Shown here: positions 1-31,928 of the stretch, in pieces
Layout: every line of letters starts with the position of its first letter
How positions within the stretch are numbered: the stretch's first letter is position 1
The notes under the pieces: generated by a model
Told to the model about the DNA's origin: nothing
Seen by the model: the letters and a program-made list of their open reading frames with translations, nothing else
The model's database searches: none
Source: a virus
Length of the DNA: 31,928 nucleotides
Virus record (IMG/VR): IMGVR_UViG_3300032797_000633
Location: 1 to 31,928 of that record
Reading direction: 5' to 3' (one strand)
Program-made: the position numbers and the translations under genes

Positions 1-2410
1 ACTCGCGGCTCAGGTTCTCCAGCCTGCAGAAGGCATACCCATCCGCCGTATTAAACTTCGCGATCCCGGCGATCAGAGGCTGCTGGCCGAGTTCCGCCAC
101 CATCGTCGCGGGCTGGAAGCTGTTCTTAGCCGGGAACGAGAGATTCGGAAGGCCCAGGTAACCCCTGGTGAGTGCGTTCTGGACGGCCAAGGCGTCCCGA
201 AGCGCCGGTCTCCTCTCCTGCAACTCCTCAAAAGCAACCTGGGTCAGGTGCTCCAACATCCCCTTGATCTGCGGCTGGGTCACCTTCGTGGCAAAGGTTT
301 CCAACAGTTTGTACTTGGCCATGAGGACATTGTGGATGGCGGCATCCTCGAAGACCGGGACCCCCTGGATGGCTTTCAAATACTGGTCCCAGAGAAGGCG
401 CTTGATCGGGTCGAGGTTCCTGGTCAGCGGATTGGTGTCCACCCCCTTTATCCTGGCTCCCGCGAATGGTCCGAGGAGGCCCTTCATCCGTTGCTCCTCG
501 ACTTCGGTGAGTCGGAAATTCGTAGGCGTGACCGCCTCGTACATGGGTTCGAGATACAGTTTCCTGGAGAAACTCCTGACGTAGGTATGAGCCACCTTGT
601 CAAGGTCGAAGGAGTAGCCAGGAACGTCCTTCCGTGCCAGGAGGAAGTTGGCCCTGGTTGCCGTTCCTGTGGGCTTCCCGATGTCGTCCGGTGCCAAGGC
701 GATCTCCCAAGCCCTGTAGGCGTCCAAGTTCGGGAAGGTATGACTCATGTACCACCCGAAACTGCGGTCACCCTGACCGAGTGTCTGCAATTCCTTCCAT
801 CCTACGGACTTGCCCATCATTCCAAGGGCGTCGGCGGTTCGGTGCCAGCGGCGGACGGCTTCGGACACCTGTGCTCTCTGCTCGGGCGTCAGTCCAGCCT
901 CAGTGGTGTGCATGATCTGAGACTGCTCTTCCATCCATTGCTGTTTCAGTTCCCAGAACCTGCGGGTCTTCTGGGCCTCGATCAGAGCCTGATCGGCAGC
1001 GTCATAAGCGTCCATGCCAGGGGTGATGCCCATCTCGGGGAGGATGCGCAGGGCCTGGATCCTGGCGGTCTCCTCCGTCCGGGCCGCAAGCATGGCATCG
1101 GCCACCCTCTTCCGGTGCGTGGGATTGAGGTCGGCGACCCTTCCAGCGTGCTGGAGCAACTTCCGGTTGAGGGGCGCGAACGCCTCCTGAAGATAGGCGA
1201 GGCACCCATGGGCCAGGTCGCTGTAGTTATCCGCCGCGACCAGCACCCTCTGGATCAGCGGCTTTGGAAACATCCAGAAAGCGGGCCGGAAGAAGCCGAC
1301 AGCCGACCAGAGTTGTGCGCCGAGGGACGGGTAACCGCCCCCCCTGCTCGGGGGATCAGGCGGGACGGGTGGAGAGGGTGGCGGGGCGAACTCGCCCGGA
1401 GGCGCTGGCGGTTCGGCCGGCGGCGGAGAAGGAACCGCAACCTTCCGCGCATCTGGGGGCCTTGGCGGAGCCTTCTCACCCCTCAGGAAGGCACGGAAAT
1501 GGCCCGTCACCCTCTGAAAATAGCTCAATGCCTCCGGATCGCCAGCGGCCATTGGCTCGACTAAATGGGCACCGAAAGTCGCCGCGGGTAGCACGGGGTT
1601 GGCTGCCCTGAGTTCCTCGTTGAGATTGCTGGGGACAGCATGGAGCGCCAACTCATCGAGGGTCGGCGTGGCCTCGTGGATCATGCGGGGCTCACCCTGG
1701 CCGGTGATCGTCACCTTCGCGTTCTCTATCCGGTTCTGCAACTCCTCGTTGAGGGCCGACCCGGGCTGCCCGTAGAGGTCCTCCACGGTCGTCTCGACAG
1801 TGATCCTGCCCGTCCCCCTGGCCCTCTCCTGAAGGCGCTTGCCTTCCAGGTAGGAGGCGATGTCGCCCGCGACGACCTTGGCGTCTACCTGAGATCCGAT
1901 CCCACCTGTTGCCTGTAACTCCTCGTCGCCGAGGTCCACAGACGCCCGAATCAGGTCGGCCATGCTGGGGTTCCCCACGGTGTCCTCGGGACGCCCGTGG
2001 AACAGGTCGTCGGTGTAGTTTCTCAACGCTTCCTTGGCATCGAAGGCAATGACGCGGTCAGTTGGTTGGACGGTATCCAAGTGCCCAAGGACCATCCTTC
2101 CGAAGTCCGGGACTCTGGCCCCCGGACGCGGTTCCCTGGCGAGGGCGTCGGACGCTGTCTTCATGAATCCCGTGAATCGTTCCGGGCTCGCCCGGTTCGC
2201 CAGGAGAAGCTCAGCCATTGCCTTTTCCCCCGAGGTGGCTCCGACCAAGATCTCCTCAATTGGGGTTCCTGCGGCCAGCCCGCGTTCAACCTGCATGGCC
2301 AGTTTGATCCCCGGCTCCATCTCGGCGAGTCTGGTGCCCCGCTCGACCTTTGAGAGATTGCGCACATAAGGTGCCGCGGCAGCCAGCAACTTCGCGATCG
2401 CGGCGCTCAC
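1..2410 (-). CDS. Very large phage protein, polyvalent/ejection-associated, 3' end outside window
   Basis: The reading frame is open from a GTG at 2410 to the left edge (803 codons, no stop), so the protein is C-terminally incomplete. The GTG shares four bases (GTGA) with the stop of the upstream gene, which fixes the start and implies translational coupling. Residues 1-310 are mostly helical and charged. Residues about 314-359 are a proline-rich linker. Residues 360-803 are again helical, with a segment near 750-770 (GYLGLPNLSFPAKNSFQP) that resembles the N..QP-type motif I associate with very large phage polyvalent-protein domains; that likeness is from memory and weak. No catalytic motif was recognised. 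As the last visible gene after the ejection-type genes and the ParB-like gene, it is probably a virion-delivered or virion-internal protein. Function unknown. Confidence 0.72.
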   Translation of the reverse strand, partial: MSAAIAKLLAAAAPYVRNLSKVERGTRLAEMEPGIKLAMQVERGLAAGTPIEEILVGATSGEKAMAELLLANRASPERFTGFMKTASDALAREPRPGARVPDFGRMVLGHLDTVQPTDRVIAFDAKEALRNYTDDLFHGRPEDTVGNPSMADLIRASVDLGDEELQATGGIGSQVDAKVVAGDIASYLEGKRLQERARGTGRITVETTVEDLYGQPGSALNEELQNRIENAKVTITGQGEPRMIHEATPTLDELALHAVPSNLNEELRAANPVLPAATFGAHLVEPMAAGDPEALSYFQRVTGHFRAFLRGEKAPPRPPDARKVAVPSPPPAEPPAPPGEFAPPPSPPVPPDPPSRGGGYPSLGAQLWSAVGFFRPAFWMFPKPLIQRVLVAADNYSDLAHGCLAYLQEAFAPLNRKLLQHAGRVADLNPTHRKRVADAMLAARTEETARIQALRILPEMGITPGMDAYDAADQALIEAQKTRRFWELKQQWMEEQSQIMHTTEAGLTPEQRAQVSEAVRRWHRTADALGMMGKSVGWKELQTLGQGDRSFGWYMSHTFPNLDAYRAWEIALAPDDIGKPTGTATRANFLLARKDVPGYSFDLDKVAHTYVRSFSRKLYLEPMYEAVTPTNFRLTEVEEQRMKGLLGPFAGARIKGVDTNPLTRNLDPIKRLLWDQYLKAIQGVPVFEDAAIHNVLMAKYKLLETFATKVTQPQIKGMLEHLTQVAFEELQERRPALRDALAVQNALTRGYLGLPNLSFPAKNSFQPATMVAELGQQPLIAGIAKFNTADGYAFCRLENLSRE

Positions 2411-3168
2411 AGATCCTCCGATAGCCGGAACAGGAGTTCCCGATCGGAGATGAGGCCGGAAATCTGAGCCAACCGAAGCCTCTCCTGGCCGGTGGTTGTG
2501 AGTCGGAATCGGGTATCAGTCGGCACGGCCAAGTCACTGATCGACTCGGGCGGAAGGGTCTCAAGGATCTGCGTGAGGAGACTGCTGTTCTCAGGACGGT
2601 CCAACCCTTCCGCAGCGTCTTCCGTGGGAGCACAGCGGACCCTGTCCAGAAGGTCGGCGCAGGCGGCGCCGTCGGACTCGGCCTGCCCGAGAATCCGGTT
2701 CACATCCTCCGGCGTGTAGTTGGACAGTCTGGAGAACAGAACCCGATCCTTCCAGGTCTCGCAGCGGCCGTCCCGGACCCTCACCAGGACCGGGGCTTGG
2801 CGGCTTTCCAGTGCCCAGCGGGGCATTCCGTACTCCGCGACCTTTTCGCTGAGGTAACGAGAGTAGACATCATATCTCCTTTGGTCTCTCAGAATCCGCA
2901 AAGCCTCGAACCTCTTGTTACCGGCTTCCACCAGACCGTCCGGGCCGAGAACTGGCGGGCCGACCCAAGGCGTTGCCGCCCTGCTTACCAGAAGGGATGG
3001 GTCGAGGCGATCCGCCAGCGCGAAGATCGCTCGCTCCCTGTCCTCCGGCGTCAGATCCCTCCGGGTCATGTCTGGGTGCTGAAGGCCAGAGGAGATGTCG
3101 ATCAGTTCATAGTGACACGGCCACTTCTGGCCGAAGAGGTCATAGAGGATGGTGTCGCTGCCGGTCAT
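2407..3168 (-). CDS. DdrB-like ParB-superfamily domain protein
   Basis: The 253-residue product has the layout of the DdrB-like ParB domain found in phage and conjugative-element polyvalent proteins. Residues 71-91 (PPVLGPDGLVEAGNKRFEAL) carry the GPDG..E.GN.R..AL signature. It is followed by a Y..YL.E....YG segment (102-114) and the PVLVRVR strand (126-132). The GN-R motif corresponds to the ParB nucleotide/nuclease motif, but the usual GNGR or GNAR is GNKR here. ParB-superfamily domains bind or hydrolyse CTP or cut DNA; which, if any, applies is unknown. In known polyvalent proteins the domain is usually fused to others, whereas here it stands alone with a short helical C-terminus. Both ends overlap neighbours by four bases (ATGA with the 1283-residue gene, GTGA with the next), so it is part of one translated block. 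A GGAGGGG ribosome site precedes the ATG. Confidence 0.8.
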   Translation of the reverse strand: MTGSDTILYDLFGQKWPCHYELIDISSGLQHPDMTRRDLTPEDRERAIFALADRLDPSLLVSRAATPWVGPPVLGPDGLVEAGNKRFEALRILRDQRRYDVYSRYLSEKVAEYGMPRWALESRQAPVLVRVRDGRCETWKDRVLFSRLSNYTPEDVNRILGQAESDGAACADLLDRVRCAPTEDAAEGLDRPENSSLLTQILETLPPESISDLAVPTDTRFRLTTTGQERLRLAQISGLISDRELLFRLSEDL

Positions 3169-6100
3169 CGCGGCCCCTCCGCCGCCTCGATGCCAGCGTC
3201 GAGTTTCGGATTGGTGCCGACCTCCGGTCGGGGAACTCCAGCCCAGGTCCCGGCGTGCGCCGCGCCAACCTCCGGCTTCTGCCCGATAAGGGCTGGTCCG
3301 ACTTCCTCCGGCGGCCTCAGCGGCATCATGGCCGCGACCGGGATTCCACCACGCTCGAAGATCAGGGGTTTCATCGGCCCTCCCGGAACTGCCCGGATCC
3401 GATCCGGCTGCATTTTCGTTAGGACGATGTCGAGGTAGTCAGGATTCGCAGCCCAGAACGTGTCGGCCGCCCTGTTAGTAAACAGGACCATCGCCGGTTC
3501 AAGTCCGCGTTTCGGTACCTTGCCGATAACCCTGACCTCCATAGTCGCGGCATCGGCCATCTCACCAAAAAACTTCGCCAGCTGGTCCGCTGGCATCTCC
3601 GCGGCTTGTGGGCCTGCAAACCAGTCCCCAGGAATGACTCTCTTCGCCTGGCTGACATCGAGAAGTACGTGGCCATTCGTCACCCAGCGGTTACCAGGGA
3701 TGTAGGGACGGTTCTTCGACTTCGTGAAGTAACTGCCCTTGACGGTTCCCTTCACATAGGGCTCGAACGGCAAGGCGGAAATTTTCTCCGAGATAGTCGT
3801 CTCCTGCGCCTGCTGTTCCGCCAACTTTTTAGCCGCCGCTCTCTCTCTCGCTCGCGGCTGGTCTGGAACCGGAGGGGGCTTCGGGACGCGAATTGGCGCT
3901 GGCTCTGGCGGAATCGGGGGCGGTTCCTCTGGCGGCTTCGCCGCGGTCGCGGGCAACGGCTCAGGACCCGCCGGAGGGGGCGCGGCACCTTGCGTCTCGG
4001 GAGGGCCAGGAAGCCGAAGCCCCTCTCCAGTGACTGCTTCCGGCTTGGTGGGAATTTTCCTTCCCGCCCCTCGGAGCCTGACCTCTGTCCGCGACTGGAC
4101 TATCCGCACATCCTTAGGGTCAAAAATAACCAACTGGTCGGCCTTGAACTGTCCGGAGAATCGGGTCCACTTGACGAGGTTGGTCATTTCGACGCCAGCG
4201 TAGTGCTTTCTCGCCCACTCCCAGAGCCTCGGATCGTCCTTGGGGTACACCGCAACGCCAAGGTCCTGCCTGGCCTGATCGACCGCCCTGACCAGGTCCT
4301 CCGCAGACCCGATCTTCAGTATCGCCAGTTCCCCGAATTTGGGCACGGTAACCGGGACCGCCGTGAGGCGCCTGACCTTCTCTGGCCGTTCGATCCAAGT
4401 CTGGCTGTCGTAGTCAAAGTAGTTCCCACCAAGGGTCTGCTTGGACCACTCCTTATCCTCCAAGGAGAGGTAGACAGCCTCGCCCATTATGCCCCGGCCT
4501 ACCTTTTCTTCGGGTCCCAATCCGCCCACGGCCCAAACCGGCGGTCTCGTCGGATCATAGACACCCGACTCCACGATGGATTTAGCGTTCTCGGGAGTGG
4601 TGAAGTGGTAGAAGATCCTACCTTCGCCCTCAACCTCCATGGCTGCGCCCGGCACCTTTGCTGGGACAGGAGGTACGGCCTCGCCCCGGGCGGTCCGGGC
4701 CTCCCTCGACGAGAGAACCTTGTACCCCATCCTCTGACCGGCGGCCTGGGCGGCCTGGGAGGTCACGAACCCACCTTCGATCGCGTCTTTCGTCTTCGCG
4801 TTGATGATGACGTAGTTGGGATTCTGCTCAGTGTGCCCCAAACCCTTGGCGACGGTCGTCACCAAGGGCTTTTCGCGGTCCCTTCTCAATAGTCTGAGGC
4901 GTTCTCCCTCATTACGGACCCAGGACTCCCCAGCCTCCTGCGTGGTGAAACTGGGGATGTCGGGATACGTCTCACCGCCTTTGCCCCGAATCTGCCAAGT
5001 CCCGGGGTTGAACGGGTCCTCTGCAACGGTGAGTCCGCGCCGAAAGAGAAGCGCCTTCTCCACGTCCCCCAGCGGCGGAACCGATTCGGGGACTTCAACG
5101 AACTCAGAGGGGTGAGCTGGCGGCGGTTTCCCTGGTTCGGGCCCGGCGGCGGGGGACGGAGTCTCAGGAGGCATCAGTTTGAGGCGCTTCTGCCGGAGCT
5201 TCTCGGCGTACATGGCGTCCACGTCCTTGTAGAACGCAGTCTTCATCTCCGCCGTATACCCGGCCTCGTCCAGACCGACTTCCAGATCGCCTAGGACGCG
5301 GTCGTAGACGTCCATCCGGCCCTTCTTGGCCACTGCACCCTCGACCATCTCCCCTATGGCCTCTGGGAGCTTGCCCGCCTTCCGCAGAATCGCCCGTTCT
5401 GCTAGTTGCTGAATTGGCCCGTGACCAGCCTCGGCCCCCATAGTCCCCGTCTTTGCTAAGTGCTCAAGCGTTTCAGCCTCCTCATACAGCTCGTTGAGGT
5501 GGCGGATGGAGGATCTTGAAGACGCCAAACGATCGAGCGTTTCCAGGCTCGGCTCGTGGCCGGCCGTCGCCATCCGGACTTGGGTGAACCCTCCGATCCC
5601 CTCCTTGTTTGGGATCAGATATGTCGCAAAATCGGCCTGTGGGAGAAACAGGCGGGAGTCCCTCAACTGCCCTACATCTTTCATCATCTGGATGCGCCGG
5701 ATCTCCCGCTCCTTCGCCGGCATCCTCGCCCACTGCACCCCCTGGATTCCCTCGAAGGCCCAGAAGAGCGGATCGACCACCGGCATCATGTACTTGTAGA
5801 ACATTTTGCCGGGCTTCCCTGCCGAAGCGTTATCCAGGCCCCAAGTGGTGGTCACCGCATTGATGGCGCTCTCAAGTTCCGGGTTCCAGACCTTCTTGGT
5901 GACATCCCATTCCAGGAGGGTTTTGAGAACCGGATTGTGCCTGATAGCCACCTGGGCGAAGGCTTCTGGCCCCATGCTGGCGTAGGAGTCAGGATGCAGG
6001 AAGGCATCCTTGAATCTGGCGATGTCGTTGTAGGCCAAGGCAGCGTTGGCCGCGAGATAGGTCCGCATCGAGGTCTGGGTGATGGTTCCCTGAGCGGCCC

Positions 6101-7016
6101 GGGCGATGTGACCGAGGGTAAGCCCACCTTTCTGACCCGGAGGTCCGATCTCGACTTCAGGCAGTCCGAGCTTCTCGGCGGCCGCCATCGGTTTCTGGAT
6201 CATCCAATACGGACTGCCCCCACCCGCGGCAGAACCGAGAAGAACCGCGACGTTGAACTTGTTCCACGGGATTCCGACCAGCACCCTGCCTAGGGCCTTT
6301 TTGCTGAGGCCGTATTTCACTAGCGTGCCGAGGGTATTGAAGGGAAAGGGGAAGTTCGCGGCCGGCACCGGCGTCTTCGAGGCGATCCAAGCAAGGGCAC
6401 GGGGGACGGCCATCCTTCCGGCCCCGCCTAACATGGCAGAGACGCCGGAGACGGCAGCGCCAGCCAGGGTTGCGGGAACTGCCTGCCCGGCCACCGTGGG
6501 AAGATTCTCGAAGAAGGTCGGACGGATCAGTTCGTCGTCGGTTGCTCCCAGTTTCTTGAGACTCTCGTTCGCCGCGACCACGGCCTCCGGGGTCTTGTCC
6601 CACGCGGACGGCGCGAAGGCCATCTGCATGATTTCCTTCGCCGCGCCCCAGTCTCGTTCCGGGACGGCAGCCACGGCCTTGCGGATGGTCTCGGGGTCGT
6701 ATCCGTGACAGGCCCGATCAAGGAACCCCAGGGGCGTCGCCGCGTACTCCTCGTCCAGCGGTTCCCGCATGACCCACGTCTCTGCCCTACGCGGCGGCTC
6801 TGGTAGGTCCGGGTACTTCTCGCGGAACCCTCCCGTGATGGACTCGAACCAGTTCTCCCTGCTGGTGAAGTTCCTCACGTACTCCGGGTCAGCGGTCCGC
6901 TTGGCTACCCGATCGATGTAGGCATCGTAGGCCGTCGAATCCGGCGTGGCCGGGTCCAAGCGCATTTGGCGTTTGAGCAGCGCGGCAACCGCCGGATCTG
7001 TCCGAATCGCTGCCAT
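3165..7016 (-). CDS. Large multidomain ejection/polyvalent protein: ART-like and sliding-clamp-like domains
   Basis: A 1283-residue protein in the position of the largest podovirus ejection protein. Residues 1-610 are helical, with hydrophobic stretches at 174-212 and 254-273 that could insert in a membrane. A proline-rich spacer lies at 615-648. Residues about 655-770 hold two small alpha/beta segments I do not recognise. Residues about 799-976 look like an ADP-ribosyltransferase fold: IFYHFTTPENAKSIVESG (His804), GEAVYLSLED (Tyr849) and a final strand LVIFDPKDVRIV. The third catalytic residue could not be assigned. After a long proline-rich linker (1004-1053), residues 1072-1236 resemble one domain of a DNA-polymerase sliding clamp: WVTNGHVLLDV near 1111-1121 and a closing KPLIF...VAAMMPLR, like the VMPMRL end of bacterial DnaN. 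No lytic transglycosylase motif was seen. It starts directly after the stop of the previous gene (TAGATG). The domain calls are by eye. Confidence 0.85.
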   Translation of the reverse strand: MAAIRTDPAVAALLKRQMRLDPATPDSTAYDAYIDRVAKRTADPEYVRNFTSRENWFESITGGFREKYPDLPEPPRRAETWVMREPLDEEYAATPLGFLDRACHGYDPETIRKAVAAVPERDWGAAKEIMQMAFAPSAWDKTPEAVVAANESLKKLGATDDELIRPTFFENLPTVAGQAVPATLAGAAVSGVSAMLGGAGRMAVPRALAWIASKTPVPAANFPFPFNTLGTLVKYGLSKKALGRVLVGIPWNKFNVAVLLGSAAGGGSPYWMIQKPMAAAEKLGLPEVEIGPPGQKGGLTLGHIARAAQGTITQTSMRTYLAANAALAYNDIARFKDAFLHPDSYASMGPEAFAQVAIRHNPVLKTLLEWDVTKKVWNPELESAINAVTTTWGLDNASAGKPGKMFYKYMMPVVDPLFWAFEGIQGVQWARMPAKEREIRRIQMMKDVGQLRDSRLFLPQADFATYLIPNKEGIGGFTQVRMATAGHEPSLETLDRLASSRSSIRHLNELYEEAETLEHLAKTGTMGAEAGHGPIQQLAERAILRKAGKLPEAIGEMVEGAVAKKGRMDVYDRVLGDLEVGLDEAGYTAEMKTAFYKDVDAMYAEKLRQKRLKLMPPETPSPAAGPEPGKPPPAHPSEFVEVPESVPPLGDVEKALLFRRGLTVAEDPFNPGTWQIRGKGGETYPDIPSFTTQEAGESWVRNEGERLRLLRRDREKPLVTTVAKGLGHTEQNPNYVIINAKTKDAIEGGFVTSQAAQAAGQRMGYKVLSSREARTARGEAVPPVPAKVPGAAMEVEGEGRIFYHFTTPENAKSIVESGVYDPTRPPVWAVGGLGPEEKVGRGIMGEAVYLSLEDKEWSKQTLGGNYFDYDSQTWIERPEKVRRLTAVPVTVPKFGELAILKIGSAEDLVRAVDQARQDLGVAVYPKDDPRLWEWARKHYAGVEMTNLVKWTRFSGQFKADQLVIFDPKDVRIVQSRTEVRLRGAGRKIPTKPEAVTGEGLRLPGPPETQGAAPPPAGPEPLPATAAKPPEEPPPIPPEPAPIRVPKPPPVPDQPRARERAAAKKLAEQQAQETTISEKISALPFEPYVKGTVKGSYFTKSKNRPYIPGNRWVTNGHVLLDVSQAKRVIPGDWFAGPQAAEMPADQLAKFFGEMADAATMEVRVIGKVPKRGLEPAMVLFTNRAADTFWAANPDYLDIVLTKMQPDRIRAVPGGPMKPLIFERGGIPVAAMMPLRPPEEVGPALIGQKPEVGAAHAGTWAGVPRPEVGTNPKLDAGIEAAEGPR

Positions 7017-27333: not shown

Positions 27334-28791
27334 TCAGTACCCGCAGTGGGTGCCGTCGAGGGCGTAGTCGGCGACCTGGTCTTCGTCGGGGGATTCTCTG
27401 ATGAACTCCCGGCCGGCGGACTGGCGTAGGCGATCGACGTTCGGCCCCCAGGTGGCCAGGTACCGCAAGCAGGCGACCATGTCGTCGGGATAGGTCGGCC
27501 TGCGGGTCTGGGAGATGTCGGCGCCGCGGGAAGGCCAGGAGAGGAAGTGGCACTGGTTGATTGTCTGCTCGCAGTGGCGCATGACCTGCAAAAACGGCCT
27601 TTCGTTGGCTTGCAGGGAAAACCAGCCGTTGACCAGATTCATCCCCTTATCGATGCCGATTCCGGGCGCGGCTTCGGCCTGAATGCCGTAGCGGGCGAAC
27701 TCGTCCTGGTAGGTCCTTTCGGTGGCCACCAGGAATTTGCGGGCTGCTCGGGGGTCCATGAGGCGGCGATGCGGAGGGCCGCCCGACATCGTCTCCAGGG
27801 CGCGGATCGTGGCTGCGGTTCTCTCCACGGACCCCCGACTGCGTTCGTCCATGACCTCGTCGTAGATCACGGATCTTGAGCCTTTCGGATCGCAGGCCCA
27901 CCAGAGGATGGCTGCGGGCCGCCTTTCGTGGGGGTCGATCACGGAAACCCGATACCAGTCTCGGGGGACGGGGAAATCCTCGACCACCCAGGGTTCTCGG
28001 GAATCGAAGTGCGGCAGGCAGCGGCCTCTGGAGGAGCCTCGGGATCCCATGAGCATGATTTCGCGTTCGGCCGGGCTGAGAACGGCTTTCAAGTTCTCGA
28101 AGACGGCGTCGTCGAGGACACCACCGCGGCTTTTGAGATTATCCTGCGTCTCAATTCGAAAAACATCCACTTTGCGGCCATCGGCCCGGTCAAAAACGTC
28201 GGGGAAGAGGTAGGGTTCAACCACCGGGGTCATGGTGAACCATTCGGGGCCGGAATGCCTCATCAACCCTCGCATGCAGGCCAGCCGGACGGGCCGTGGC
28301 GGAGCTTCGTCGTGATGGACCCAGTGTCCGGTGCCGGAATGGAACTTCATCGGTTCCTGATCGTGACTCATGAACCAGGTCTCGGACCCCCAGCGGGTTA
28401 TGAGATGAGTCGGGTATCCCTGGGCGTTCTTCTCCAGGTCGTAGAAGCCCTTTGGGGCCATTTCCAGGAATTTCGGCAGAACGGCCTGCATGAGGCCGCT
28501 GGGGAAGTCGGTGCAGGTGACCCGGCCTATGTTGGGCACGGTGATCGGCTTGCCATCGACGCGGCGGACCAGGAAATCGGGGTCGTCTGGACTCATCCAG
28601 GGGTGGAATCCGATCATGGCGGACCAGTCTTTCGCGCACCCCCAGGTCGTCTTCCCCGCCTGCCAGCCTCCGGAGAGCATGATGATTCCGGCGTGGCTGC
28701 GGAAGGCGGTGTCCTGCTTGGGGGTAGGCCGGAAGGCGAAGATCCCCCAGGTCTCTTTCAGCCGCCCATAAAGCTCTAGGAGGTCACTCAT
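27334..28791 (-). CDS. terL: Terminase large subunit (TerL), ATPase and nuclease
   Basis: 485 residues. The N-terminal ATPase has a Walker A at residues 41-49 (GGWQAGKTT), a Walker B at 156-162 (HWVHHDE, D161/E162) and a motif III-like WFTMTPV at 184-190. The C-terminal RNase H-type nuclease has VSVIDPH (D286), IYDEVMDE (D311/E312), RLMDP (D346) and YPDDMVACLRYL (D436/D437). The protein powers DNA packaging into the prohead and cuts the concatemer. The start ATG lies inside the end of the upstream small gene (8-base overlap), with GGAG just before it. All key residues appear present, so the protein should be active. Confidence 0.95.
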   Translation of the reverse strand: MSDLLELYGRLKETWGIFAFRPTPKQDTAFRSHAGIIMLSGGWQAGKTTWGCAKDWSAMIGFHPWMSPDDPDFLVRRVDGKPITVPNIGRVTCTDFPSGLMQAVLPKFLEMAPKGFYDLEKNAQGYPTHLITRWGSETWFMSHDQEPMKFHSGTGHWVHHDEAPPRPVRLACMRGLMRHSGPEWFTMTPVVEPYLFPDVFDRADGRKVDVFRIETQDNLKSRGGVLDDAVFENLKAVLSPAEREIMLMGSRGSSRGRCLPHFDSREPWVVEDFPVPRDWYRVSVIDPHERRPAAILWWACDPKGSRSVIYDEVMDERSRGSVERTAATIRALETMSGGPPHRRLMDPRAARKFLVATERTYQDEFARYGIQAEAAPGIGIDKGMNLVNGWFSLQANERPFLQVMRHCEQTINQCHFLSWPSRGADISQTRRPTYPDDMVACLRYLATWGPNVDRLRQSAGREFIRESPDEDQVADYALDGTHCGY

Positions 28792-29227: not shown

Positions 29228-29296
29228 CTCACAATTTCAACTGAGATCAGGTGATGCAAGCCCCAGGAGTACATAGGACTAGATACGGAGCCTGGG

Positions 29297-29308
29297 CTGT
29301 CCGGACAG
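29297..29308. promoter_or_regulatory. 12-bp perfect palindrome upstream of terS, possible operator
   Basis: CTGTCCGGACAG is its own reverse complement and is flanked by CCTG and CAGG half-sites. It lies about 70-80 bases before the small terminase start. It could be an operator for a dimeric repressor, for example the nearby ribbon-helix-helix protein, or a packaging signal. No direct evidence decides. Confidence 0.35.
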
Positions 29309-29406
29309 GAACAGGTGCAGACCCGGTTGAGCTGGCCCCAGGGGTTTTGGGGGTTTCTAGGGTTTTTTCTACCGTACCCCACACGGAAAAGTTGGAAGAG
29401 GAGGGT

Positions 29407-29442
29407 CCGGGACTCTCGGAGCCTGCAACTCCGGCACATGCC
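29407..29442. repeat. 36-bp direct repeat, left copy
   Basis: Identical over 36 bases to 31607-31642. Begins CCGGGACTCTCGG and ends CCGGCACATGCC. Inside lies an inverted repeat CGGAG-(7)-CTCCG. This copy is followed by another hairpin (GCCTC/GAGGC). Confidence 0.9.
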
Positions 29443-29560
29443 TCCGGCTGAGGCGATCCGGCCCGGAGAGTGCGAACAGAAAAGAGACGGGCGACTGCTG
29501 AACTGCCTCGCGAAAGCCGCCAGCAGTCGCCCTAGGATCCACGGTCAAAGGTAGGTTCGT

Positions 29561-29628
29561 GGGGCACGGAAGGTTCCCAGACCGGGGTTTACACTCGGGA
29601 CTGCGGGGTCCGATCCCCCGGCGCTCCA
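29561..29628 (+). other. tRNA-like structured element, D-arm degenerate (not called as tRNA)
   Basis: A T-arm-like hairpin is clear: stem CGGGG/CCCCG with loop TCCGATC at 29604-29620, one mismatch from the TTCRANY consensus. It is followed by GCGCTCC and A. Upstream GGGGCAC can pair with GCGCTCC in six of seven positions, counting one G-T pair. CCGGG/CTCGG can form an anticodon-like stem with loop GTTTACA. Only 14 bases lie between the acceptor and anticodon stems, so there is no normal D-arm. It is probably a degenerate or accidental structure; GACTG/CAGTC offers an alternative outer stem. Confidence 0.2.
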
Positions 29629-29648
29629 GTCGCCTAACGAGCCAAAGC

Positions 29649-29846
29649 CTACCACAACCTGGCAGGTCTTGAGAAGAGGGACTTCCGGAGAGTATCACGA
29701 ATCCACTTCGACAGGGTCTTGCCCGCTCGTTTCGCGGCTCCTCGAAAGGCCATACGGTCCTCTTCCGTAACCCTAATTGGGACAATAAGTTTCTTCCTGG
29801 ACTGATCTGCCAGTCGCGGGCGCCCCCTGGGTTTCTTCTTCTTCAT
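29649..29846 (-). CDS. Ribbon-helix-helix DNA-binding protein
   Basis: 65 residues from ATG 29846 (MKKKKPRGRPRL); an in-frame TTG at 29858 could extend it by four residues. A basic N-terminus is followed by the RHH pattern: a strand (RKKLIVPIRVTEED), helix 1 (RMAFRGAAKRAG) and helix 2 (KTLSKWIRDTLRKSL). 'TLSKWIRDTL' is typical of Arc/MetJ/CopG-type and MobC-like proteins. RHH dimers bind DNA through the paired strands. No Shine-Dalgarno is visible before either start, so it may be leaderless or weakly expressed. It is divergent from the small gene at 29908 and could be an autoregulator, an orphan antitoxin or a phage regulator. No toxin partner lies on the same strand. Confidence 0.75.
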   Translation of the reverse strand: MKKKKPRGRPRLADQSRKKLIVPIRVTEEDRMAFRGAAKRAGKTLSKWIRDTLRKSLFSRPARLW

Positions 29847-29877
29847 GAGGATAAACAATGCAGACCGCGCCAGTGTG

Positions 29878-29886
29878 TGCTAGAAT
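29878..29886 (+). promoter_or_regulatory. Possible extended -10 promoter
   Basis: TGCTAGAAT matches an extended -10 element (TGn plus TAtAAT, five of six). It lies just upstream of the strong ribosome site of the small gene at 29908. No good -35 was found, as is usual for extended -10 promoters. The expected 5' leader is only about 15 bases. The TAGAATCTA core is near-symmetrical and could also serve the divergent gene. Confidence 0.4.
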
Positions 29887-29907
29887 CTAACCGAAGGAGG
29901 ACGGATT

Positions 29908-30138
29908 ATGGAGACCAAAGTCGGTAAGCCAGTAACCGGTCAAGACTACCAACGACTCCCAAACGGTCCTGCGCCGCGTCGCCTACTACCAGTCCAAAAC
30001 GAGTTAATCCAGAATGGTGAGGCCGTTCCGCAGATTTGTGACTGCCACGGATATGTACAGAAACGCCTGATCGCACTTCGGGAGCCAAAGCTTGGTACTG
30101 TCCTAATTCGCCGTGCCCAACGATTTGTGAGACGATAA
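29908..30138 (+). CDS. Small hypothetical protein with strong ribosome site
   Basis: 76 residues, ATG 29908 preceded by AAGGAGG seven bases upstream, which strongly supports translation. The sequence is polar, with basic and proline residues near the N-terminus (NGPAPRRLLPVQNELI), a pair of Cys (ICDC) in the middle and an Arg-rich C-terminus (LIRRAQRFVRR). No family was recognised. It is the first gene of the plus-strand group and is divergent from the RHH gene. It may be a small nucleic-acid-binding or accessory protein, but nothing in the sequence proves this. Confidence 0.65.
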   Translation: METKVGKPVTGQDYQRLPNGPAPRRLLPVQNELIQNGEAVPQICDCHGYVQKRLIALREPKLGTVLIRRAQRFVRR

Positions 30139-30214
30139 TCTCAATTGTGGATTTCCTGAAACAAGATGAAGTCTAGGTTGTATTGTCACGACACATTTGG
30201 TAGAGTTAGGTTTC

Positions 30215-30514
30215 GTGGACCTGCGAGAGGCAAAGAAGAGGATTCGAGAGGCAATCGAATCTGACGAGCCGCTCACTTATAGCCCGCACGGATGTGAAAA
30301 GGCAGATGCGCGCGAGGTTCTGCATTCGGATGTACGCCGCATCCTGAAAACCGGGTATTACCCGGAACCACCCGTCAGCAGCGGGTTGAGCGGCTGGTGG
30401 GATCTCACAGCCCACGGGGTTGACTGCGACAATAGACGTGTGGCGGTTGTGGTGGCTGTCCACGAGGAGCGTAACCGCCCAATCAGGATCCGCACTATTG
30501 TCGTAAAAACCTAG
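30215..30514 (+). CDS. DUF4258-like putative toxin of a type II toxin-antitoxin pair
   Basis: 99 residues from GTG 30215 (VDLREAKKRIREAIESDEPL). An in-frame TTG at 30197 would add six residues but has no ribosome site, while TTAGG precedes the GTG. The pattern LTYSPHGCEKADAREV, SDVRRILKTG, RRVAVVVAVHEE and IRIRTIVVKT fits the small DUF4258 fold: a strand, H near an arginine-bearing helix, 'dv..iL..G', then two closing strands. DUF4258 genes are often followed by an MqsA-type antitoxin, as here. In MqsR-like systems the toxin is an mRNA endoribonuclease; whether this one cuts RNA is not known. It starts about 76 bases after the previous plus-strand gene and ends 24 bases before the antitoxin. 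Confidence 0.7.
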   Translation: MDLREAKKRIREAIESDEPLTYSPHGCEKADAREVLHSDVRRILKTGYYPEPPVSSGLSGWWDLTAHGVDCDNRRVAVVVAVHEERNRPIRIRTIVVKT

Positions 30515-30538
30515 GGGAGACAACTGGAGGCATAGGTC

Positions 30539-31093
30539 ATGGCTTGTCCGATTTGCGGAGATCAAAAGGCTCGCGAAGTCCAAGAGCCATACAAGTATGA
30601 AGGTTGTGGCCTGGACTACGTCTATCTCATCGGAATCCTGCAGACGGAATGTCCGAACTGTGGACTGACAGTAACTATTCCGAGGGAACATCAACTTCTC
30701 AATCTTATCGGCTTCGAGCTGGTGCGGCGCGAGGAGCGCCTTGGCCCGCGAGAGATTAGATTCCTGCGTAGTATGGCCGGTTGGACGCAACAAGAACTTG
30801 CGGGTACGCTACGCGTGGAGAGAGGCACAGTAACGAATTGGGAGTGCCTTAGTGACCCAACCTCGCCCGAGAAACATACAGAAGCACTATTTCGGTTGGT
30901 CTGGGCACACGAGATGGCCAAGCGGTTTTGCGAAGAATGCGGAGAGCAAATGCCCGACCAACTCAGGAGAGTCACAGATGATCTTCTCGACACCATCTCC
31001 AAGCTCATAGACGCCATCCAAATCCAGGCAAAGTCGTCGATCAAGATTGATGTCGAATCCATGCAGGTCCTTCAGGCCGCATGCGACACCTAA
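30539..31093 (+). CDS. MqsA-like antitoxin: zinc finger plus helix-turn-helix
   Basis: 184 residues, ATG 30539 with GGAGG eight bases upstream. The N-terminal zinc site is CPIC (residues 3-6) with CPNC (about 38-41). A central linker is followed by a Cro/C1-type helix-turn-helix at about 75-105: REIRFLRSMAGWTQQELAGT, then LRVERGTVTNWE. The C-terminus has a third Cys pair (CEECGE) and a long helical tail. This is the MqsA arrangement: zinc domain binds the toxin, HTH binds the operator. It is longer than E. coli MqsA (131 residues), so it has an extra C-terminal region. Gene order toxin-then-antitoxin matches mqsRA. Such modules in phage can act in plasmid-like maintenance or in defence against other phages. 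Confidence 0.85.
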   Translation: MACPICGDQKAREVQEPYKYEGCGLDYVYLIGILQTECPNCGLTVTIPREHQLLNLIGFELVRREERLGPREIRFLRSMAGWTQQELAGTLRVERGTVTNWECLSDPTSPEKHTEALFRLVWAHEMAKRFCEECGEQMPDQLRRVTDDLLDTISKLIDAIQIQAKSSIKIDVESMQVLQAACDT

Positions 31094-31254
31094 ATCCCAG
31101 TCAGATCAGCGAAGCCCCGCATTCATTTATCGGTTGGGAAGTCGGGGAAATGCAAGAGACTATCCCCTATCAAACTGCCTTCATTGACATACGGCCGCTG
31201 ACCACGGACGAAGAAGCCTATGCGGATACATTAGTAGCGACCCACCGTGCGTAA
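31081..31254 (+). CDS. Possible third small gene overlapping the antitoxin end (57 residues)
   Basis: An open frame from ATG 31081 to TAA 31252-31254 overlaps the last 13 bases of the antitoxin gene. The 57-residue product starts MRHLNPSQISEAPHSFIGWE and continues with hydrophobic and acidic segments (TAFIDIRPLTTDEEAYADT). Only a weak ribosome site is seen (CAGG nine bases before). The overlap suggests translational coupling and a third element of the toxin-antitoxin operon, but the frame is short and could be chance. No family was recognised. Confidence 0.4.
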   Translation: MRHLNPSQISEAPHSFIGWEVGEMQETIPYQTAFIDIRPLTTDEEAYADTLVATHRA

Positions 31255-31406
31255 CTGTGGTAAGCGTAACCCGGTAACACCCCTATATCACCCTCCCCAA
31301 AATGCCAGCCCGTATAAGAACGAGAAAGAGTCGCAAAAGGAAGAAAGATCAAACGATACTCTCTCGAAGGGAAGCATTCTTTGTAAGATAGGGGGCGGCG
31401 GCTTCG

Positions 31407-31433
31407 GCCCCCCCCGGGGGGGCTTTGGCTTTT
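31407..31433 (+). terminator. Possible rho-independent terminator
   Basis: GCCCCCCCC followed immediately by GGGGGGGC forms a very GC-rich stem, which must open a few pairs to make a loop. It is followed by TTTGGCTTTT. It could end transcription of the plus-strand toxin-antitoxin operon. The broken T-run lowers confidence; an overlapping UUCG stem gives an alternative fold. Confidence 0.3.
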
Positions 31434-31606
31434 GCCTGGATGGGCCTCTTGTTCGGTGGGGCTGGTTTCGGCCTTGGTGATTGTTTGGGCGATACCTCTG
31501 TGGCTTCACAGGGACGCGCAGGGCGAACGATCTGGGGTTGGGCTATGCTGGAATACCCATTCGTGGAGATCGAGGCTTCTGGGGGCATCTGGCAGCGTTT
31601 GCCTAG

Positions 31607-31642
31607 CCGGGACTCTCGGAGCCTGCAACTCCGGCACATGCC
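31607..31642. repeat. 36-bp direct repeat, right copy
   Basis: Exact match to 29407-29442. Together the copies bracket about 2.2 kb that contains the RHH gene, the small gene at 29908 and the toxin-antitoxin genes. The right copy runs directly into a stem-loop (CGCAGTTCCC...GGGAAACTGCG, with one bulge). Confidence 0.9.
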
Positions 31643-31712
31643 GCAGTTCCCTTACAGGGAAACTGCGTGCATGCCGTAGTTCCAGACCATGGCTAGGTGC
31701 TTGCCGCAGTTC
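31637..31712 (+). repeat. Three spaced CATGCCG(C/T)AGTTC repeats
   Basis: Near-identical motifs begin at 31637 (CATGCCGCAGTTCC), 31670 (CATGCCGTAGTTCC) and 31700 (CTTGCCGCAGTTC), 33 and 30 bases apart. The first overlaps the end of the 36-bp repeat. Such spacing, three helical turns, would suit a multimeric DNA-binding protein, or the motifs may be parts of hairpins. Confidence 0.6.
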
Positions 31713-31825
31713 TCCTGGTGCCGCCGACATAACCCCTGGCTAGTCGTCGTGCTACGCCATCTCCGGCATGTCTCCGGCATGGACTCCTGCTCGCCGGAGT
31801 TGGTAACACTGCCCCATAGGAACTC

Positions 31826-31875
31826 AGAAGAAGAGAACTACTTACAAAAGGACACCTAGAAGAAGAGAACTACTT
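31826..31875 (+). repeat. 18-bp direct repeat pair
   Basis: AGAAGAAGAGAACTACTT occurs at 31826-31843 and 31858-31875, 32 bases apart start to start. The flanking DNA is purine-rich. Iteron-like or regulatory repeats are possible. Confidence 0.8.
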
Positions 31876-31928
31876 GCATATCCTAGTAACAACCCTAGAA
31901 CATAAGAAAAAGAAGACCTATTTCTCTC

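Follow-up and report, generated by a model that had tools for sequence, protein, structure and literature searches.

The 1283-residue open reading frame P0001 raises the question of whether a phage protein can carry, near one end, a diverged piece of a DNA sliding clamp. The original prediction had placed a sliding-clamp-like domain at the C-terminus of this protein on account of two motifs. We examined the locus computationally within its window, which covers the entire virus record (31,928 bases) and is possibly a fragment of a larger genome. The likeness to clamps is better than chance, is unproven by standard search or unguided fold, and is a testable lead, not a finding.

The minus strand carries almost every long gene. 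The terminase (27334-28791) comes first, followed by the portal, capsid and tail proteins, the two beta-helix spike proteins P0005 and P0004, two smaller ORFs, P0001, P0002 and an open ORF. The right end of the record (29228-31928, about 2.7 kb) holds scattered short ORFs with a convincing gene on neither strand, and the rest is densely coding. The candidate domain belongs to the first of three adjacent genes:

3165..7016, minus strand: P0001, the 1283-residue ORF with the candidate domain, assigned to no Pfam or PHROG family
2407..3168, minus strand: P0002, a stand-alone DdrB-like ParB protein (PF18763, E 9.1e-16)
2..2410, minus strand: an ORF of 803 residues that runs off the record; no family match

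The end of the P0001 gene and the start of P0002 overlap by 4 bases. Relatives of P0002 are phage P1 DdrB and podovirus proteins of tail or ejection type, and the DdrB-ParB domain sits inside large proteins of the latter kind in podovirus ctype202 and phage Piluca. DdrB-ParB is a domain of phage-type polyvalent proteins, which enter with the DNA (PMC5512222). Because of this neighbour, and because the same domain lies inside the ctype202 and Piluca proteins, P0001 is probably an internal (ejected) virion protein of a podovirus-like phage, as judged from gene order only. The 803-residue ORF is presumably a further internal virion protein. P0002 is itself a separate gene, with a ParB domain and a C-terminal tail as in the podovirus proteins; the relatives examined carry the domain within much larger proteins. 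Around the DdrB-ParB genes of 80 phage loci, no ORF resembled a clamp or P0001, so DdrB-ParB is not regularly accompanied by a clamp-like protein.

The terminase shared only 22-28% identity, over most of its length, with environmental podoviruses and actinophages, and single-protein scans of IMG/VR with the terminase (TerL), the capsid protein, P0001 or the candidate domain returned no relatives. The phage thus stands apart, and any argument from conservation is limited accordingly.

Positions 3309-3803 on the minus strand, for which the clamp-like domain had been proposed, correspond to P0001 residues 1236-1072, and both motifs cited in its favor (WVTNGHVLLDV and the KPLIF...VAAMMPLR ending) are present as described. 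The stretches KPLIFERGGIPVAAMMPLR and MKPLIFERGGIPVAAMMPLR both end at residue 1234, and 49 residues follow MMPLR; the domain is thus near the C-terminus and not at it. Clamp likeness in P0001 was confined to residues 1085-1238, behind a proline-rich linker at about 1000-1070. Listed with their apparent counterparts in bacterial clamps (DnaN) and in phage mini-clamps, the elements of this segment are:

3303..3764, minus strand: candidate clamp-pocket module, residues 1085-1238, proposed from the block chain and the guided fold, homology unproven
3693..3710, minus strand: RPYIPG, residues 1103-1108, like RYYLNG / RPYLSG of DnaN domain II and mini-clamps, and corresponding to pocket residues Arg152 and Leu155
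3654..3686, minus strand: WVTNGHVLLDV, residues 1111-1121, like ATDGHRLA, and corresponding to pocket residues Thr172, Gly174, His175 and Leu177
3630..3644, minus strand: KRVIP, residues 1125-1129, like the RRVLP/RRVIP behind the DGRFPD linker
3411..3446, minus strand: NPDYLDIVLTKM, residues 1191-1202 (the NPDYL block), like FNxxYLLDALKAL of domain III, and corresponding to pocket residues Asn320 and Tyr323
3357..3380, minus strand: GPMKPLIF, residues 1213-1220, like SGPLSPVxI of domain III
3315..3329, minus strand: MMPLR, residues 1230-1234, like VMPMR (pocket residues Met362-Arg365)

Two further regions of P0001 drew attention by eye. Residues of about 790-990 (window ~4050-4650, minus strand) read YHFTTPENAKSIVESGV ... 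GEAVYLSLE ... ADQLVIFDPKDVRIV and resemble an ADP-ribosyltransferase, with no match in Pfam. At about 660-770 (window ~4700-5040, minus strand), NPGTWQIRGKGG...FTTQEAGESWVRNEG and NPNYVIINAKTK...FVTSQAAQAAGQRMG look alike and are possibly a repeated small domain.

Ordinary homology searches gave no support to a clamp relationship. The domain had no match in Pfam at E<=10, only an unrelated match (0.25) in PHROGs, and no clamp among its phmmer matches to PDB sequences. A search of the whole record with PF00712, PF02768 and PF02767 found nothing, and the positive controls were detected. Neither tblastn, which covered 50,697 phages and 72,556 plasmids, nor genome scans with P0001 or the domain recovered any relative. 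Our own profiles, built from 25 DnaN and 33 mini-clamp sequences and run with all filters off, scored P0001 at a non-significant -2.1 and -1.9 bits, respectively; a broader DnaN profile gave -2.5 bits, hhalign about 2% probability, and domain II profiles no match. At these non-significant scores, the best place of full-length DnaN profiles over all 1283 residues was 1191-1221, in the right register to domain III, and that of the mini-clamp profile was residue 1113, with TNGH on TDGH. Mean local alignment z to the mini-clamps was only 1.06 for the module; elsewhere in P0001 it ranged from -0.33 to 0.57. With no homologue in viral contigs, phages, plasmids or genomes, conservation is unreadable.

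A viral scan with the pattern NGH...NxxY...MP[LM]R returned nine loci, the pattern having coded Asn as AAC; the window uses AAT, so relatives bearing AAT (and the window itself) escape it. All nine were set aside as chance: one was open in frame, in a helicase/methylase-like ORF without the motifs in frame, and the others were broken by stop codons.

These uniformly negative standard tests are what would be expected if the segment had nothing to do with clamps and were a polyvalent-type orphan alpha/beta domain with some other binding or enzymatic role and with TNGH and MMPLR as chance likenesses. Polyvalent proteins contain about 40 uncharacterised LPD domains (PMC5512222), and reading about 10,000 residues by eye against all familiar families was bound to yield some likeness. 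We give this explanation somewhat less than an even chance; against it stand the order and spacing of the motifs, the residues of the docking pocket and the guided fold.

Motif order was assessed with five blocks (RYYLNG, TDGHRL, FPDYRRVIP, GFNxxYLLDALKAL and VMPMRL) and generous spacing. P0001 reached an ordered score of 40.6 bits, with blocks at 1101, 1112, 1121, 1189 and 1228, and, with the known clamps excluded, came out on top of 2,349 ORFs; the next ORF scored 33.1. Shuffled sequences averaged 19.3 (sd 3.9), and none of 3000 reached 40.6 bits (Gumbel p 4.6e-4). When the two motifs of the original prediction were held fixed, the other three blocks (RPYIPG, KRVIP and NPDYL) fell in the right order with p=0.0002 for a short linker block, and with p=0.04 for the full linker block including DGRFPD. 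RPYIPG, block A, had p of about 0.007 on its own given its place. Both the block set and the gap ranges were fixed after the domain had been seen; the p-values are therefore optimistic and amount to a modest gain in likelihood, not proof.

Taken one at a time, the blocks were less distinctive, which speaks in favor of an unrelated orphan domain. The TNGH block (13.9 bits) took its best place in P0001 here and was the sole block well above noise. The others occupied first-to-third best places within P0001, at noise level, with A, D and E second or third. The best places of the five blocks clustered no more than in shuffles (2/5). Of the two likenesses to DnaN first proposed, that of TNGH is thus clear of noise, whereas MMPLR is only the third-best place of its block.

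The second line of evidence concerns the pocket itself. In E. coli DnaN it is formed by Arg152, Leu155, Thr172, Gly174, His175, Arg176, Leu177, Pro242, Arg246, Val247, Asn320, Tyr323, Val344, Val360 and Met362-Arg365 (PMC11139829). With Val344 left unscored, 12 of 17 pocket residues were identical in P0001. In sets of 5000 shuffles, this count came up once when the C-terminal region was shuffled (2e-4) and 53 times when the whole protein was (p 0.011). The alignment is ambiguous in the middle of the module, where NPDYL can also be aligned to the FPDYRRVIP linker instead of FNxxYL.

Fold prediction had been proposed as the check, with an unrelated fold as the outcome that would speak against a clamp. 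Unguided AlphaFold2 (no alignment) failed, with a pLDDT of 33.5; the C-terminal half of this low-confidence model ran helix, strand, helix, three strands, which is the order of a clamp half-domain. A guided model of residues 1085-1238 was built with alignment A5, composed of mini-clamps and DnaN fragments, and gave a pLDDT of 65.5 and a pTM of 0.58, and residues 101-150 of the model had block means of 78-89. In VIA-align, DnaN, PCNA and 9-1-1 chains filled the top 21 places for this model, with Z up to 5.7 (DnaN), although a Z under 8 may reflect nothing beyond a common arrangement. Foldseek against PDB gave no E below 0.4; against BFVD it matched an uncharacterised siphovirus protein (E 0.003) and, among others, phage proteins named as clamps (E 0.05-0.07). 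Because the alignment contained clamp rows, a clamp-like guided fold is partly circular, and because A5 was picked among several sets of clamp sequences on the ground that all motifs fell in register, the model is a threading exercise. An unrelated fold was therefore not what emerged, but the agreement with DnaN is not independent of the clamp sequences used to obtain it. The proposed relationship to clamps has thus gained three further blocks in order, a pattern of pocket residues and a DnaN-like guided fold, but no significant match, homologue or unguided fold.

A search of phages with E. coli DnaN recovered full clamps and also a family of proteins of 170-230 residues annotated 'DNA polymerase III beta subunit'. 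These mini-clamps are widespread in IMG/VR (463 loci) and are collected in phrog_3007, with examples in Serratia phage Eta gp10, Escherichia phage rolling gp39 and Vibrio phage NVP1237B_49. In alignments they appear to have retained domain II of DnaN together with the C-terminal half of domain III, where the pocket residues lie, and we infer that they are portable docking pockets. The family is named 'RusA-like Holliday junction resolvase', a name copied in many phage records. Its members (L009:1483-2022, L010:1477-1989, L012:1444-2022, L013:1564-2238) have TDGH and MPMR motifs and match the DnaN central domain (PF02767), though weakly, as well as phrog_947 'DNA polymerase processivity factor'. 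They look like mini-clamps, and the resolvase name is probably a mistake. The mini-clamp gene of some siphophages adjoins a ParB-type (ParB HTH) protein (L009:649-1470, L011:151-966), and an ORF like Eta gp11 occurred in 19 of the 92 mini-clamp and clamp loci searched.

In our reading, the closest kind to the P0001 module is the single-pocket mini-clamp of phrog_3007 rather than full DnaN. Both measure about 150-200 residues and agree in the order of the motifs [TS][DN]GH, R-x-Y-[LI]-x-G, N-x-x-Y-L and MP-[LM]-R; in P0001 the TDGH-type motif is TNGH at 1113-1116 and the MPMR-type motif MMPLR at 1230-1234. The phrog_3007 proteins, however, are small and stand-alone with a clear family signature, whereas the P0001 module is fused into a large presumed virion protein, is not matched by their profile (the -1.9 bits given above), and lacks the conserved DGRFPD linker that they have. 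With bacterial DnaN the module would have in common 12 of 17 pocket residues, the partly circular guided fold (Z 5.7) and a best, non-significant profile position in domain III; DnaN, in contrast, has three domains and about 365 residues, and its Pfam families found no significant match in P0001. P0001 also resembles the phage polyvalent proteins, being a large phage protein beside DdrB-ParB that presumably enters with the DNA. Those proteins have several recognised effector domains including DdrB-ParB, whereas P0001 has none and the DdrB-ParB domain lies in the adjacent P0002.

The proposal of one clamp-like domain is better stated, if the likeness is real, as a pocket module like the mini-clamps, equivalent to about 1.5 DnaN domains. 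That such a domain could not close a ring by itself holds, since about 150 residues provide the structure of a single pocket, whereas six domains make up the ring of DnaN. It is conceivable that several copies, or one copy together with host DnaN, form a working sliding clamp; the possible fold is all that speaks for this, and the size of the module and its place in a 1283-residue protein behind a proline-rich linker make it highly improbable. With one pocket only and no ring closure, the module would instead be a docking mimic or a recruiter. Capping of the host clamp, suggested in the original prediction, is as hypothetical as a decoy or recruiter role.

The clamp reading overall stands about evenly balanced. 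In its specific form, that P0001 is a probable internal virion protein whose final stretch of ~150 residues is a clamp module, much diverged, with the docking pocket kept and the ring not, we place it a shade short of even. The working that we infer for this module, in fold, delivery, binding and effect, starts from what is observed, namely the motifs, their order and the gene neighbourhood. P0001 would be delivered into the cell together with the DNA, and the pocket would bind host proteins of replication and repair by their clamp-binding motifs (QLxLF type). The proteins so bound would be either kept off the host clamp, as by a decoy, or held near the incoming genome and the DdrB-ParB neighbour, as by a recruiter. 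That a clamp-derived pocket delivered by the virion captures host clamp-binding proteins at DNA entry, before phage gene expression, is possible but doubtful.

Within the clamp reading, the module may serve to bring host polymerase, ligase or clamp loader, or else phage proteins that have clamp motifs, to the entering genome, and not to poison host replication as a decoy. The neighbouring DdrB-ParB protein and pocket residues that are preserved, not altered, are consistent with such recruitment. A decoy is equally compatible with all the evidence, however, and the record, being a structural module, shows no replication genes by which to judge partners. We consider recruitment unlikely.

The words 'Clamp', 'DnaN' and 'PCNA' are absent from the main text of the survey of polyvalent proteins (Iyer et al. 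2017, PMC5512222). If the clamp-pocket reading is true, this phage would, along with its DNA, deliver to the cell a finished mimic of the hub on which host replication centers. Injected phage proteins would then gain a further type of domain, and a clamp-pocket binder active at time zero would be at hand. The analysis also draws attention to the widespread and uncharacterised phage mini-clamps, which seemingly keep just the docking pocket and are of interest for how such a pocket may be used without its ring.
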